Below, piece by piece: positions 54,783-64,000 of a stretch of 64,000 bases of DNA. The notes below the pieces were generated by a model. It saw only the letters and a program-made list of their open reading frames with translations, made no database searches and had not been told where the DNA came from. Source of the DNA: Mucilaginibacter conchicola (GTDB lineage: Bacteria > Bacteroidota > Bacteroidia > Sphingobacteriales > Sphingobacteriaceae); contig NZ_QWDC01000005.1 in assembly GCF_003432115.1 (NCBI RefSeq), forward strand, positions 124,001 through 188,000. The letters are read 5' to 3'. A program made the translations under genes and the position numbers. Numbering within the stretch: the first letter of the stretch is position 1; each line of letters begins with the position of its first letter.

Positions 54783-55883
54783 ATGCGTGGTTTTGGGTTT
54801 TCTAAATTTATACCAAAACAGATCCCCAAAGGCGGATTTGACGAATTACTAAAGTTATTCCTGGAATTGCTGAACTACACCGCGGGCGACGCCGGTGAGG
54901 CTTTGGCATGGCTTAACGAGCTTGATAAGCAATACAACATCACCAATGACGAATATGGCATGGGCGATTTTATTGACGAGCTGAAGCAAAAGGGATACTT
55001 AGACGAAAATAAACAGGACGGCAGTTTCAGCATCACTGCAAAAGCCGAGCAAAGCATAAGGCAATCGGCGTTGGAAGAGATCTTTGGCAAGCTGAAGAAA
55101 TCGGGCAAGGGTAACCACCGCTCGCCGCAAAGCGGGCAGGGCGATGAGCGAAATGCCGAGCGCCGCGAGTTTGAGTTTGGCGACAGCCTGGACCAGATAG
55201 ACATGACACAGTCTATCCACAATGCCCAGGTAAATCACGGTATCACCGGCGATTTCATGATGACCGAGCGCGACCTTGAGGTAGAGGAAATGGACTACAA
55301 AACCCTAACCTCGACCGTGCTGATGATAGATATTTCGCACTCCATGATACTTTACGGCGAGGACAGGATTACACCTGCCAAAAAGGTAGCCATGGCGCTG
55401 GCAGAGCTTATCCGCACAAAATATCCTAAGGATACTTTAGATATTGTGGTATTTGGTAACGATGCCTGGCCTATCTCCTTACAGGACCTTCCGTACTTAC
55501 AGGTTGGCCCTTACCATACCAATACCTATGCGGGTTTAGAGCTGGCTACAGATATGCTTCGCCGGCGTAAAACACACAACAAACAGATCTTCATGATAAC
55601 CGATGGTAAGCCTACCTGCTTAAAGGAAGGTAACCGTTATTACAAGAACAGTATTGGGCTGGATAGAAAAGTGGTGAACAAAACGCTGAATATGGCGGCG
55701 CAATGCAAGCGCTTAAAAATACCTATCACAACGTTTATGATAGCCAAAGACCCCTACCTGCAGCAGTTTGTACGCAAGTTTACCGAAACCAACGGTGGCC
55801 GCGCATTTTACAGCTCGCTGAACGGCTTAGGCGAATACATTTTTGAGGATTATATTAAGAACAGAAGAAGAACGGTACGTTGA
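54783..55883 (+). CDS. VWA-domain protein paired with an AAA+ ATPase
   Basis: A 366-residue cytoplasmic protein with no signal peptide. The N-terminal ~100 residues are helical (FDELLKLFLELLNYTAGDAG), followed by a charged linker (about 105-130) and a VWA domain from about residue 175. The MIDAS metal site is Asp183-x-Ser185-x-Ser187 in MIDISHSM, with the conserved Thr region in YHTNTYAGLELA and the Asp in MITDGKPT. It lies 75 bp upstream of the AAA+ gene. MoxR/VWA pairs act as chaperone-like complexes that mature or remodel protein complexes or insert metals. The client here is not known. Confidence 0.82.
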   Translation: MRGFGFSKFIPKQIPKGGFDELLKLFLELLNYTAGDAGEALAWLNELDKQYNITNDEYGMGDFIDELKQKGYLDENKQDGSFSITAKAEQSIRQSALEEIFGKLKKSGKGNHRSPQSGQGDERNAERREFEFGDSLDQIDMTQSIHNAQVNHGITGDFMMTERDLEVEEMDYKTLTSTVLMIDISHSMILYGEDRITPAKKVAMALAELIRTKYPKDTLDIVVFGNDAWPISLQDLPYLQVGPYHTNTYAGLELATDMLRRRKTHNKQIFMITDGKPTCLKEGNRYYKNSIGLDRKVVNKTLNMAAQCKRLKIPITTFMIAKDPYLQQFVRKFTETNGGRAFYSSLNGLGEYIFEDYIKNRRRTVR

Positions 55884-55958
55884 TGTGCGGATGTGCAAAT
55901 TGCAGATATGCAGATGATGTGCTTGCAGATACCAATGAACAATTGAACCATTGAACAA

Positions 55959-57461
55959 ATGAATTACACAGAAATAAAAACCCTTGGTCAGCTTAAAGAA
56001 ACGGGCTATGTGAGCCGTTCGGTAAAGGATGAGCTGAGGGCCAACCTGATCAAACAATTACAAAAGAAAGAAGGCGGCTTTGAGGGCATTGTGGGTTTTG
56101 AGGATACCGTTATCCCCGATCTGCAGACGGCCATCCTATCGCGCCATAACATATTACTGCTTGGCTTACGTGGGCAGGCTAAAACGCGTATTGCCCGCCT
56201 GCTGGTAAACCTGCTTGATGAGTATATACCCTACATTGAAGGATCTGAACTGTTTGATGACCCTTTGGCGCCTATCTCATGGTACGGCCATGAGACCGTG
56301 GAGAAGCATAAAGATGCCACCCCAATAGCCTGGTTGCACCGCAGCGAGCGCTATACCGAAAAACTGGCTACCCCGGATGTTACCGTTGCCGATCTGATCG
56401 GTGATGTTGACCCTATAAAGGCCGCCACCATGAAGTTGACCTACTCTGATGAGCGTGTTATCCACTTCGGGTTAATTCCACGTGCGCACCGTGGTATCTT
56501 CGTTATTAACGAGCTGCCCGATCTGCAGGCACGTATCCAGGTATCGTTGTTCAACATTTTGCAGGAGCGCGATATCCAGATCCGTGGCTTTAAACTGCGC
56601 TTGCCTTTGGATATCGAGTTTGTATTCACCGCCAACCCTGAGGATTATACCAACCGTGGATCTATCGTTACGCCGTTGAAAGACCGTATCGAGAGCCAGA
56701 TATTAACGCACTACCCGCGCACTATCGAGATCTCTCGCAAGATAACCCAGCAGGAAGCTTTGCTTACCGCTGAGCAACGCGCAACCGTTGAAGCTGATGG
56801 TTTGGTGAAAGACCTGGTTGAGCAGATTGCTTTTGAAGCCCGCGCATCAGAATACATCGATAAAAAATCGGGCGTATCGGCACGTTTAACTATCGCATCA
56901 TACGAGAATCTTATCAGCAATGCCGAGCGTAGGATGATTATAAATGGCGAGAAATCAACCTTTGTACGCATCTCTGATTTCCTGGGCGTTATCCCTGCCA
57001 TCACCGGTAAAATTGAACTGGTTTACGAGGGCGAGTTGGAAGGTCCCGGCAAAGTGGCGAACATCCTGATAGGCAAGGCGGTTAAAAGCCTGATGCTGCA
57101 GTTTTTCCCCGATCCCGAGAAGGCTAAAAAATCAAAAGCACCAAACCCTTACGCCGAAATAGTAAACTGGTTTGGCGATGGCAACACCGTATCATTAATT
57201 GACGACCTGCCTTTAGCCGAATACAAAAAACTGCTCAACGCCGTACCGGGATTAAAGAATTTGGTTAAAACCTTCCACCCGCGTTTAAGCGAAAACCAGC
57301 AACTTTTGTTGATGGAGTTTGTGCTGCACGGCCTGGCCGAGTTCTCGCAACTCAACAAAGGTTTCCTTGATAACGGCTTTGCATTCTCAGATATGTTCAA
57401 CAGCCTGTTTAACCTGGAGCCGGATGACGATGACGATCTGGATCTGGATGATAGGTATTAA
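55959..57461 (+). CDS. MoxR/magnesium-chelatase-type AAA+ ATPase
   Basis: A 500-residue AAA+ ATPase. Walker A is GLRGQAKT with Lys75. The Walker B position reads IFVINELPD, with Asn184-Glu185 in place of the more usual Asp-Glu. Sensor 1 is in FVFTANPEDYTNRG. The pre-sensor-1 insertion and helix-2 insert expected of the chelatase clade fit the long segment 100-170. The C-terminal ~120 residues are extra and end in an acidic tail (DDDDDLDLDD). It is expected to work with the VWA protein encoded upstream. The short spacer contains small repeats (CAGATATGCAGATG). Confidence 0.85.
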   Translation: MNYTEIKTLGQLKETGYVSRSVKDELRANLIKQLQKKEGGFEGIVGFEDTVIPDLQTAILSRHNILLLGLRGQAKTRIARLLVNLLDEYIPYIEGSELFDDPLAPISWYGHETVEKHKDATPIAWLHRSERYTEKLATPDVTVADLIGDVDPIKAATMKLTYSDERVIHFGLIPRAHRGIFVINELPDLQARIQVSLFNILQERDIQIRGFKLRLPLDIEFVFTANPEDYTNRGSIVTPLKDRIESQILTHYPRTIEISRKITQQEALLTAEQRATVEADGLVKDLVEQIAFEARASEYIDKKSGVSARLTIASYENLISNAERRMIINGEKSTFVRISDFLGVIPAITGKIELVYEGELEGPGKVANILIGKAVKSLMLQFFPDPEKAKKSKAPNPYAEIVNWFGDGNTVSLIDDLPLAEYKKLLNAVPGLKNLVKTFHPRLSENQQLLLMEFVLHGLAEFSQLNKGFLDNGFAFSDMFNSLFNLEPDDDDDLDLDDRY

Positions 57462-61489: not shown

Positions 61490-63133
61490 CTAATTGTCTA
61501 AAGGCAACGTCACAATAAACGTAGATCCTTCATTTACTTTACTCGTAACGGTAATTTCGCCGTCCATAAAGTTAACCAGTTCTTTGCAAAATGCAAGCCC
61601 CAGCCCTACGCTCCCATTTTGGTTATATTGGTTCTCTATCCGGTAGAATTTTTTGAACACATCGCCCTGTTCGGCTTTGGCCATTCCTATCCCTTTATCG
61701 GCAAATCTTAATACAACATTACGGCGTTCTTGTTTTATATCAATGTCCAGCTCCTTGTTGCCCGGGTGCGAATACTTGTAGGCATTCTCCATCAAATTCT
61801 GAAAAATACTGCCCAACAACACCGGGTCGGTGTTAAAAGCGTCAACACCCTCAACATGGCTGGTCACCTTAAAATCAGGATATTTTATCTTAAAGGTTTC
61901 TATATAACCTTTCACAAAAGCTTTTAATGATACTTCCTGGCGGTGTATGGTGATAGAGCGGTTCTCCAGTTGGGTGAAAGATAGCAGCTTGTTCATCAGG
62001 TCGTTCAGCTTATCGGCTTCCTCGTCAAGTATCTTACCGTAATGGCGGCGCTGGCGTTCGCTCAGTTCAGCATCACCGCGCAGGTTCGATCCGGCAATTT
62101 TTATCACACTCACGGGTGTCTTAAACTCGTGCGTAAAATTGTTAATGAAATCGTACTGCAGTTTAAATATCTTTAAGTTGATGCTGAGGTTACGATAAAT
62201 AAGCCAGGTGATGAGCACCATAAAAACGTAGATGAGCAGCACAATGGAGCCTATCGGTAAAAAACGGCGGTCTATCTCTTTATCAAGATGCTCTCTGGTA
62301 GATGAAAAATACAGTTTAAAGTTAGAAAAAGCGCCAGTTAAAGCTGCCTCAGTAACTTTGCGGCCATTATCAATATCCAGCGGATCATAAACCACCGGCT
62401 CAATGGTTACCTGCTGGTAAAGCTCTGGATGGTTATTTCTCACCTTCAGCTTGTTGGCATCCAGCAAAAAGGTCATCATGTTTTGCTTGTAGAATGCCTT
62501 GCCCTCGCGCCTGTCTAACAACGACTGGTAGATCTTTACATCTTCCCTGCGGGGAATATTGAGGTAGCTTATTTTATCGGGGCTAACATCATAAAACGTA
62601 CGGAAGATCTCGTCTTGCGTAGGCAACCTGGTAGTATCTGCTGTACTAATAAAATGGCTTAATTTGAGTGCCATGTGCTTAAAATCGTCCTCATTGGCAA
62701 AGGCCATATCTTTAAGGCCACGCACCGCACCACGTTTGCTTTTGTATTGATAGATAGCTTTTACCGAGATACCCCTGTTATTGGTGAAGGTAACATTGGT
62801 AGGTTTGCTGCCTATCTGCAGATCATAAAACAATATCCTGCTTACAAAAGGATAAGCCTTGAAAACGGTTCCGGAATAATTGGCTGCTGATGCCGAATCC
62901 AGAAAGCCCTGGTAAGAAGTTATCTCCGGAATTTTAAGCTGAAAGAAATCGTTATAGGGTTTGGATGTCTGATCCAGCACCTCTACCTTTTTTGATGAAA
63001 ATTCGTTCTCTACGTATTTGGCCGTAAGGTTGTAGGCGATGATAAGCCCTATCACAAAACTCACAGTAATAAGCACCAATGATGCCGTTATCAGCGTAAA
63101 GTTTTTGCGGTATATATTCTTAGGCGCTTTCAT
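61490..63133 (-). CDS. Membrane sensor histidine kinase
   Basis: A 547-residue kinase. Transmembrane helix 1 is near residues 13-35 and helix 2 near 292-313; they enclose a periplasmic sensor domain of about 255 residues of no recognised family. The HisKA domain has phosphoacceptor His335 in NNFTHEFKTPVSV. The HATPase_c domain has the N-box NLMENAYKYS, the G1 box FADKGIGMA and the G2 region GSVGLGLAFCKEL. It is encoded 6 bp after the S9-family hydrolase gene and 12 bp before the response regulator, so all three are one operon. Confidence 0.93.
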   Translation of the reverse strand: MKAPKNIYRKNFTLITASLVLITVSFVIGLIIAYNLTAKYVENEFSSKKVEVLDQTSKPYNDFFQLKIPEITSYQGFLDSASAANYSGTVFKAYPFVSRILFYDLQIGSKPTNVTFTNNRGISVKAIYQYKSKRGAVRGLKDMAFANEDDFKHMALKLSHFISTADTTRLPTQDEIFRTFYDVSPDKISYLNIPRREDVKIYQSLLDRREGKAFYKQNMMTFLLDANKLKVRNNHPELYQQVTIEPVVYDPLDIDNGRKVTEAALTGAFSNFKLYFSSTREHLDKEIDRRFLPIGSIVLLIYVFMVLITWLIYRNLSINLKIFKLQYDFINNFTHEFKTPVSVIKIAGSNLRGDAELSERQRRHYGKILDEEADKLNDLMNKLLSFTQLENRSITIHRQEVSLKAFVKGYIETFKIKYPDFKVTSHVEGVDAFNTDPVLLGSIFQNLMENAYKYSHPGNKELDIDIKQERRNVVLRFADKGIGMAKAEQGDVFKKFYRIENQYNQNGSVGLGLAFCKELVNFMDGEITVTSKVNEGSTFIVTLPLDN

Positions 63134-63139
63134 GCAAGG

Positions 63140-64000
63140 TTAACGTTTAACCTGCAAATTGTTGCTCAGGAAAGTTTCAATTTCGGTGTACATCTCCATC
63201 CGGTTGTGCTCGCTTTTAAAATAAGCACGCTCATTTTCTTTAAGGCGATAAGTTACCGGCACGTTGCGTTTCTTTAGCTCGCGTACAAACTGGTTCAGCT
63301 CGCTGATGTTGGCGCGCGGATCTTTTGCACCCTGGAATATCAGTAACGGACTTTTGATCTTATCAGTATGAAAAACCGGCGAAATGGCACGCAATTCTTC
63401 GGCATCCGTTTCGGGGTTACCCACCATCTCGTAGGTCATTTTCAGGAACGGCTTAAAGAACGGCGGCGCATCTTTCAGATAAGTAAAGAAGTTGATCAAC
63501 CCATATTTTACCACCGCACAATTGTACATCCCCTGGTGGAACGATACGCCATACAGCGCCGAGAAACCACCAAACCCACCACCAAAAATGGCTATTTTTT
63601 TAGGGTTAGCAATTTTATTGGCTATCAACCATTGCACACCATCAGTAATATCCTGCTGTATTTTACCGCCTACCTGTTTAAAGCCAGCTTTCCTGAAGGC
63701 CTTACCATATCCTGCCGAACCACGGTAATTAACCTGGAAAACAGCATAACCACGGTTGGCTAAAAACTGCACCTCGGCATCATAACCCCATGAGTTGCGG
63801 CCCCAGATGTTATCGTGCGGCATTACCACTACGGGCAGGTTTTTCATTTCTTTGCCTTTTGGTATGGTAAGATAGCCATTAAGTACCAAGCCGTCGCTGG
63901 CCTTAAAAGATATTGGTTTCTGGTCGCAAAGTTCTGCCGGGCTTATGTCAGGATTAGTGTCACCTAACTTGGTAAGCTGACCGGTACTTTTTTCGTATAG
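63140..64000 (-). CDS. S9-family alpha/beta hydrolase lacking the catalytic serine (partial, C-terminal part)
   Basis: The minus-strand frame is open to the end of the window, so this is the last 286 residues of a longer protein; an internal ATG at 63889 is not the true start. It is the C-terminal peptidase domain of a prolyl-oligopeptidase-like protein: PVVVMPHDNIWGRNSWGYDA, YAVFQVNYRGSAGYGKAF and ILIFQGAKDPRANISEL are typical blocks. The nucleophile elbow, normally GxSxGG, reads FGGGFGGFS, with the Ser replaced by Gly (codon at 63576-63578). The usual EGHGF histidine block reads NERAYF. The acid in GAKDP remains. It may be an inactive homologue. It heads an operon with the kinase and regulator. 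Confidence 0.85.
   Translation of the reverse strand, partial: LYEKSTGQLTKLGDTNPDISPAELCDQKPISFKASDGLVLNGYLTIPKGKEMKNLPVVVMPHDNIWGRNSWGYDAEVQFLANRGYAVFQVNYRGSAGYGKAFRKAGFKQVGGKIQQDITDGVQWLIANKIANPKKIAIFGGGFGGFSALYGVSFHQGMYNCAVVKYGLINFFTYLKDAPPFFKPFLKMTYEMVGNPETDAEELRAISPVFHTDKIKSPLLIFQGAKDPRANISELNQFVRELKKRNVPVTYRLKENERAYFKSEHNRMEMYTEIETFLSNNLQVKR

Follow-up and report, generated by a model that had tools for sequence, protein, structure and literature searches.

The window analysed here, a stretch of 64,000 nucleotides of the Mucilaginibacter conchicola contig NZ_QWDC01000005.1 (positions 124,001 to 188,000), ends inside the gene for a protein of the S9 (prolyl oligopeptidase) family, hereafter the S9 protein, which is followed on the reverse strand by the genes for a sensor histidine kinase and a response regulator (Table 1). 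A first-pass annotation of the window had described this protein as an S9 hydrolase lacking its nucleophile and histidine block but keeping its acid, had placed it directly ahead of a two-component system, and had proposed that the dead enzyme could bind peptides and offer them to the kinase as part of a peptide-sensing system. The description is borne out by the DNA: the serine of GxSxGG is a glycine (GGG), the EGHGF block reads NERAYF with an alanine (GCT) at the histidine position, the aspartate of GAKDP (GAT) is kept, and 6 bp separate the S9 stop codon from the ATG of the kinase gene, downstream of which the regulator gene lies. That the oxyanion motif HGGP is replaced by HDNI had been missed.

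The operon and the fold of the S9 protein

The window carries only residues 344-629 of the S9 protein, the start of its gene lying ~1 kb outside, at G000:C11:189029. Extension of the gene past the window edge, as the first-pass annotation had advised, gave a full length of 629 residues and an N-terminus with a lipoprotein-type signal, MQGRLRSVFLLVFVLFFCAC. The operon appears to consist of three genes, since the next large frame sits on the opposite strand. The kinase has HisKA and HATPase_c domains with an H-box and the regulator has REC and Trans_reg_C domains, the make-up of a two-component pair with a regulator of OmpR/PhoB type.

Table 1. The operon and the catalytic positions of the S9 protein, in window coordinates (aa, amino acids; TM, transmembrane).
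Feature	Position	Strand	Basis or remark
S9 (prolyl oligopeptidase family) pseudopeptidase, lipoprotein-type signal	63140..64000	(-)	C-terminal 286 of 629 residues in window
Nucleophile codon GGG, Gly485 replacing Ser of GxSxGG (IFGGGFGGFS)	63575..63577	(-)	DNA and alignment with relatives
Catalytic His position, GCT, Ala602 (NERAYF for EGHGF)	63224..63226	(-)	DNA and alignment with relatives
Catalytic Asp570 kept, GAT (GAKDP)	63320..63322	(-)	DNA and alignment with relatives
Oxyanion motif HGGP reads HDNI	63806..63817	(-)	DNA and alignment
Sensor histidine kinase, 547 aa: TM helix, sensor domain (~residues 48-280), TM helix, HisKA + HATPase_c	61490..63133	(-)	
Response regulator, OmpR/PhoB type (REC + Trans_reg_C), 229 aa	60788..61477	(-)	

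PF00326 (Peptidase_S9) matches residues 414-626 of the S9 protein with 134 bits against a cut-off of 22.6 (6e-39), and a DPPIV_N match falls under its own cut-off. The fold was taken from a model of the ortholog at locus L119 (Mucilaginibacter segetis), which is 74% identical to the window protein and stands in for it. The model (predicted local distance difference test, pLDDT, 92.5; predicted template modelling score, pTM, 0.90) has a beta-rich N-terminal part, the beta-propeller that the first-pass annotation had anticipated, and an alpha/beta C-terminal part, the hydrolase; it matches S9 structures across residues 25-629, and its superposition on the acylaminoacyl peptidase 5l8s aligns 581 residues with a template modelling score of 0.81, a Z of 35.7 and 22% identity. 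Given the strength of the PF00326 match and a model that matches S9 structures nearly end to end, the absence of the serine and the histidine is not an alignment slip. By descent, as judged from its domain and its predicted two-domain fold, the S9 protein is thus a member of the S9/prolyl oligopeptidase family; as an enzyme, its sequence is deficient in two of the defining residues, Ser and His, and retains the third, Asp. MEROPS would presumably class it as a non-peptidase homologue. Of the 21 Pfam matches in the same genome, the seven best-scoring loci other than the operon gene all have Ser in GxSxGG.

Adjoining the operon, just outside the window, is a divergently transcribed gene (L009:7167-8972) with a signal-peptide-like start, tetratricopeptide repeat (TPR)-like by reading; a homolog was found in 65 of the 84 loci tested. 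Within the window, positions 54783-57461 hold an ordinary-looking pair of genes that, from reading the frames, we take to encode a VWA-like protein and, next to it, a MoxR-like AAA ATPase.

Conservation of the operon and loss of the catalytic residues

Within the genus, 142 of 149 genomes have a match to the S9 protein (E <= 1e-30); in a family sample 191 of 201 do, spread over 22 of 25 genera. Among good genomes (completeness of 90% or more, contamination of 5% or less) the counts are 117 of 117 and 181 of 186. These are counts of protein matches, and the operon context was confirmed for a subset of them. The operon was located in Mucilaginibacter, Pedobacter, Sphingobacterium, Arcticibacter and Pelobium, as well as in two records titled Bacteroidetes MAG and ‘Flavobacteriaceae bacterium PS02338’. 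Among 148 loci of the family, retrieved by their position or through a protein hit, the kinase gene directly follows the S9 gene in 146 (106 of 108 in L010-L117, 13 of which are second fetches, and 40 of 40 in L228-L267), and the two loci with no visible kinase, L028 and L032, stop at a contig edge. In 152 kinase-bearing rows, a row being kept if the kinase frame opens within 100 bp of the S9 gene, the gap to the kinase start is -4 to 34 bp. The lipobox cysteine is aligned in 141 of 150 operon proteins, the remaining nine being stretches that start at the match edge, and the S9 protein is probably lipidated. The H-box is present in all 147 operon kinases long enough to test, and the N-box pattern in 141 of 146. 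Two samples were searched for the kinase sensor domain: in a class sample 13 of 345 genomes matched it, in an order sample 150 of 151, and every matching genome belongs to Sphingobacteriaceae. The S9-kinase-regulator operon is a fixture of Sphingobacteriaceae.

Two genomes deserve mention in their own right. G211, a complete family genome of 2.3 Mb, has neither the S9 protein nor the kinase sensor domain and is the sole genome of the order sample to lack the latter. An apparent fusion of peptidase and kinase in G187, seen as an open frame of 1200 amino acids, was rejected when the DNA (L085) showed two frames with a stop between them.

The state of the triad was compared between 150 operon proteins (the 148 with the kinase seen adjacent plus L028 and L032, four genomes present in two collections being counted once) and 80 relatives outside the operon. 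The latter are the best of longer lists (best 80 of 584 loci; 30 loci in a second list) and were found with DNA patterns that exclude the catalytic motifs; the absence of a kinase next door was judged within the retrieved flank, which is short for some. The triad is intact in 79 of the 80 relatives. Ser, Asp and His are all present in 33 operon proteins, and 117 lack Ser and/or His: 99 lack both, 8 lack Ser only, 7 lack His only and 3 lack all three residues. Asp survives in 147 of the 150; where His is missing, 15 other residues or a gap are seen in its place. The question, raised with the first-pass annotation, of whether the glycine is fixed among orthologs receives a divided answer. At the nucleophile, Gly is the residue in 96 proteins, Ser in 40, Arg in 12, Ala in 1 and Asn in 1; among the 62 closest operon proteins (at least 51% identity), Ser is absent in 55 and His in all 62, so the changes at Gly485 and Ala602 are not peculiar to one strain.

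In all 33 intact operon proteins the nucleophile serine is encoded by AGT or AGC, one transition away from the glycine codons GGT and GGC, and the relatives outside the operon use AGY in 56 of 80 cases and TCN in 24. The glycine codon of the window protein is itself GGG.

A few relatives outside the operon are worth recording. The sole broken one, L135 (Parachitinimonas caeni), reads EGLGF for EGHGF, with Leu in place of His and no matching kinase adjacent. L148, with an intact triad and from outside Sphingobacteriaceae, has a regulator-like gene ~0.7 kb and a kinase-like gene ~1.4 kb downstream, at 29-30% identity, perhaps by chance and perhaps as another S9-kinase link; L209, an intact S9 relative likewise from outside the family, has a regulator-like gene ~0.7 kb downstream. 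L130-L197 are mostly intact relatives, at 33-43% identity, in records titled Burkholderiales, Paenibacillus, Synergistales and others, a distribution that suggests broad horizontal transfer of the ancestral enzyme, with mis-binned contigs of metagenome-assembled genomes as the alternative.

The history of the triad was followed on a tree of the S9 protein built without the catalytic columns from 154 operon rows (four genomes appear twice) and 11 outgroup rows. The minimum numbers of changes are 12 for the triad state, 15 for Ser and 9 for His, or 10, 12 and 8 when only branches with at least 95% support in the Shimodaira-Hasegawa-like approximate likelihood ratio test are used; it is a quick tree, with some weak forks and one join in the outgroup carrying a long-branch warning. 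Change counts alone do not separate loss from gain, and the outgroup has an intact triad; with the tree rooted on it, we read the sequence record as about twelve separate losses of Ser. The eight Ser-less proteins that keep His are scattered at several places in the tree. The seven that have Ser and lack His (L018-L020, L041, L110-L112) all fall within Mucilaginibacter and its sister genus, nested among glycine rows, an indication that Ser was regained after the site had died, as an apparent reversal. Operon orthologs with a normal GxSxGG, which the first-pass annotation had named as a finding that would refute its idea, do occur (40 of 150 with Ser, 33 of 150 with the whole triad); repeated changes of the triad inside a fixed operon argue that catalysis is dispensable there, and not that the idea is wrong.

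It is highly improbable that the S9 protein remains an enzyme with another nucleophile or another chemistry. The retention of Asp and the good conservation of the hydrolase domain would suit such an enzyme, but 110 of 150 proteins have Gly, Arg, Ala or Asn at the nucleophile position, the His position varies as described, and a Ser that reappears among glycines in His-less proteins is what is expected of a free position; no search was aimed at residues conserved in broken proteins alone, those listed being common to intact and broken operon proteins. Nor are the broken copies decaying. The ratio of non-synonymous to synonymous substitution rates (dN/dS) was computed with our own script by Nei-Gojobori counting for pairs more than 75% identical and with dS between 0 and 2.5. 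For broken operon proteins the median is 0.062 (0.024-0.149), from 124 of 300 pairs, and for intact ones it is 0.046 (0.017-0.068), from 13 of 46; the broken copies are full-length and under strong purifying selection. The chance that the gene is a pseudogene or an assembly artefact is accordingly negligible: the loss of catalytic residues is the sole point for it, and it is contradicted by a dN/dS of about 0.06 and by near full-length matches in almost all of the 142 genus genomes with a match, the exceptions being G079 and G087, which are fragments, and G138, which has one in-frame TAG.

The probable link to the sensor domain

The branch lengths of five parts, namely the propeller and hydrolase of the S9 protein, the sensor and kinase parts of the kinase, and the regulator, were fitted on one fixed tree of 109 loci, and covariation was expressed as the partial rank correlation (rho) of log branch lengths given the other three parts over 183 branches. 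Kinase and regulator are partners by the general two-component mechanism and provide a positive control, with a partial rho of 0.39; propeller and hydrolase, which belong to one chain, give 0.38. The propeller-sensor value, 0.37, is close to these yardsticks and the hydrolase-sensor value is 0.29, with sensor-kinase at 0.24, hydrolase-kinase at 0.11, hydrolase-regulator at 0.10 and sensor-regulator at -0.07. The propeller lies farther than the hydrolase from the sensor-coding part, so closeness of the coding parts does not fully account for the covariation. With the divergent TPR-like gene as a control (57 loci, 93 branches), propeller-sensor is 0.34, hydrolase-sensor 0.29 and TPR-sensor -0.04, and propeller-sensor exceeds TPR-sensor in 98% of 500 resampling draws, or 96.6% at a stricter branch cut-off. 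The signal is also present on the 128 branches of dead lineages (propeller-sensor 0.31, hydrolase-sensor 0.30), and on the 39 branches that are intact only the values are 0.33 and 0.12.

Repeated loss of the cutting residues with the rest intact suggests a sensing partner rather than an enzyme. We consider it probable, from these comparisons of sequences, that the S9 protein is a captured peptidase now serving as a non-catalytic accessory co-receptor of the adjacent kinase in a three-component sensing system. The proposal that a catalytically dead S9 protein is tied to the kinase is upheld by the conserved operon, the purifying selection on dead copies and the covariation with the sensor domain.

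A number of observations weigh against this co-receptor reading. The intact triads of 33 operon proteins mean that catalysis may matter in some lineages. The sensor is not the only part whose rates go with those of the S9 protein: the propeller gives 0.22 with the regulator and 0.19 with the kinase, the TPR-control set gives 0.25 for both propeller-TPR and hydrolase-regulator, and hydrolase-regulator reaches 0.44 on the 39 intact-only branches. Covariation does not equal contact and can also arise when parts share selection, a compartment or a local mutation rate, and the p-values attached to it treat branches as independent. With the whole kinase model as query, Foldseek and VIA-align gave hit lists taken up by the kinase core, and no fold was identified for the sensor part. 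Finally, in genus g11 (genomes of 1.3-2.0 Mb) the S9 protein is found in none of six genomes and the kinase in five, which means that the kinase can serve without an S9 partner.

In two of the g11 loci (L304-L307, L335-L339), read gene by gene, the TPR gene is followed by the kinase directly beside it and then by the regulator, with no S9 gene between; the TPR homolog is present in all five g11 stretches retrieved. On a tree that lacks an outgroup, the kinase of g11 groups as sister to the kinase of L090, an operon with an intact S9 protein; this favours loss of the S9 protein in g11 over a branching before its capture. Among highly conserved kinase positions, 3 of 14 sensor sites are changed in g11 as against 4 of 63 kinase sites (the reference kinase row ends at residue 497), numbers too small for a conclusion; twelve other groups have at most 2 of 14 conserved sensor sites changed, and the g11 figure is suggestive only.

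The same observations bear on a different account, in which the S9 protein is an output of the system, an envelope scaffold or binding protein whose level is controlled by the kinase-regulator pair and which has no sensing role. Its position in the operon fits that account equally well, and g11 and the correlations of propeller and hydrolase with the regulator speak for it. We nevertheless regard it as unlikely: in the main set both S9 parts covary more strongly with the sensor than the hydrolase does with the regulator, and the sensor domain itself shows no covariation with the regulator.

Peptide presentation by the dead enzyme, which would bind peptides in its old active site and show them to the kinase, is a special case of the co-receptor reading, and one that we regard as unlikely. 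It would draw on the whole two-domain fold being predicted to be kept, and the pseudoproteases CspC and CspA have been proposed as signal receptors in Clostridium difficile, according to the passages seen of PMC6464247. The old site is often altered, however. HGGP is retained in 79 of 80 proteins outside the operon, 20 of 35 intact operon proteins and 26 of 104 operon proteins lacking Ser and His (repeats included), and the propeller residues 105-106 are EN in 75 of 80 proteins outside the operon versus 9 of 33 intact operon proteins, EN being outside the six commonest pairs in broken ones. Catalytic-loop residues conserved outside the operon are lost in broken proteins more often than other residues (13 of 28 versus 28 of 118, p 0.02), a modest effect, obtained with loop ranges defined solely by the four catalytic motifs and with the two catalytic residues excluded, and smaller than with ranges partly picked after inspection; restricted to sites also kept in intact operon proteins, the test gives 2 of 17 versus 4 of 86 and is not significant. 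The frequent replacement of the HGGP loop and of the Glu-Asn pair makes use of the old peptide site doubtful. Together with the pattern of catalytic-loop loss, it leads us to prefer a protein-protein role for the S9 protein while keeping ligand binding as a possibility.

A proposed three-component sensing system and its known counterparts

As we picture the co-receptor, the lipoprotein would contact the periplasmic sensor domain of the kinase, read a signal and set kinase activity according to ligand or envelope state, in a direction that may be either activating or inhibiting, and the kinase would pass its phosphate to the OmpR/PhoB-type regulator. Irrespective of this mechanism, which we infer, the sequences identify the S9 protein as a real, conserved and most probably non-catalytic partner of its kinase. 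As to its origin, we give about an even chance to a history in which an S9 peptidase was captured once into the kinase operon early in Sphingobacteriaceae and became a co-receptor, after which catalysis would have died about ten or more times independently, often by one AGY-to-GGY step, with His eroding later and binding to the sensor kept under selection.

Under that history the operon would be a replicated natural experiment in the conversion of enzyme to receptor, in which one and the same kinase is still found with partners that are live, half-dead or dead. The presence of live, Ser-less, His-less and dead operon forms in one family makes it testable what the partner needs from the ancestral enzyme and in which order catalysis is lost. 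The operon also opens a way into a two-component system conserved in Mucilaginibacter, Pedobacter and Sphingobacterium, on which a search mostly outside subscription journals found no study. Among the matches listed in that literature there was nothing on this operon and no S9 protein as an accessory or receptor of a kinase; accessory lipoproteins of kinases and pseudoprotease receptors are each known, and an S9 protein in the accessory-lipoprotein role was not found there.

The WalK-YycH pair also joins a kinase to an extracytoplasmic partner, YycH being, to our knowledge, no relative of peptidases; its structure (PDB 9a5d) headed the Foldseek results for the kinase model, but superposes poorly overall (root-mean-square deviation 43.6). 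Inactive dipeptidyl peptidases such as DPP10 are subunits of ion channels; they are eukaryotic, belong to another subfamily and have another partner. Human DPP10 (PDB 4wjl) resembles our protein in being an S9 protein labelled inactive in the PDB; a literature search on DPP6 and DPP10 brought up nothing related. The acylaminoacyl peptidase 5l8s, the best PDB sequence match of the S9 protein, shares its two-domain fold, but it is an enzyme, and GGSYGG and EGH are both present in its aligned sequence.

The closest functional parallel may be QseG, an Escherichia coli lipoprotein encoded in an operon with QseE and QseF, which attaches to the periplasmic portion of QseE and activates this kinase, as described in the abstracts seen (PMC6075780, PMC12691602). 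A lipoprotein gene, recognised here by its lipobox, in an operon with a kinase and a regulator is common to both systems, and we suggest that the S9 protein works like QseG, making no claim of homology. The systems differ in that the partner proposed here is a former peptidase of 629 amino acids whose contact with the kinase is inferred, in that QseF acts at sigma-54 promoters, and in that those abstracts describe no S9 nature for QseG. CspC and CspA of C. difficile are likewise proteases with mutations at their catalytic residues and have been proposed as germinant receptors (PMC6464247, as far as the passages seen go). Unlike the S9 protein, they are subtilisin-like, belong to spores and are proposed to act on the protease CspB, no kinase figuring in those passages. 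In its proposed working the S9 protein comes closest to QseG, and in its evolution it resembles the Csp proteins.

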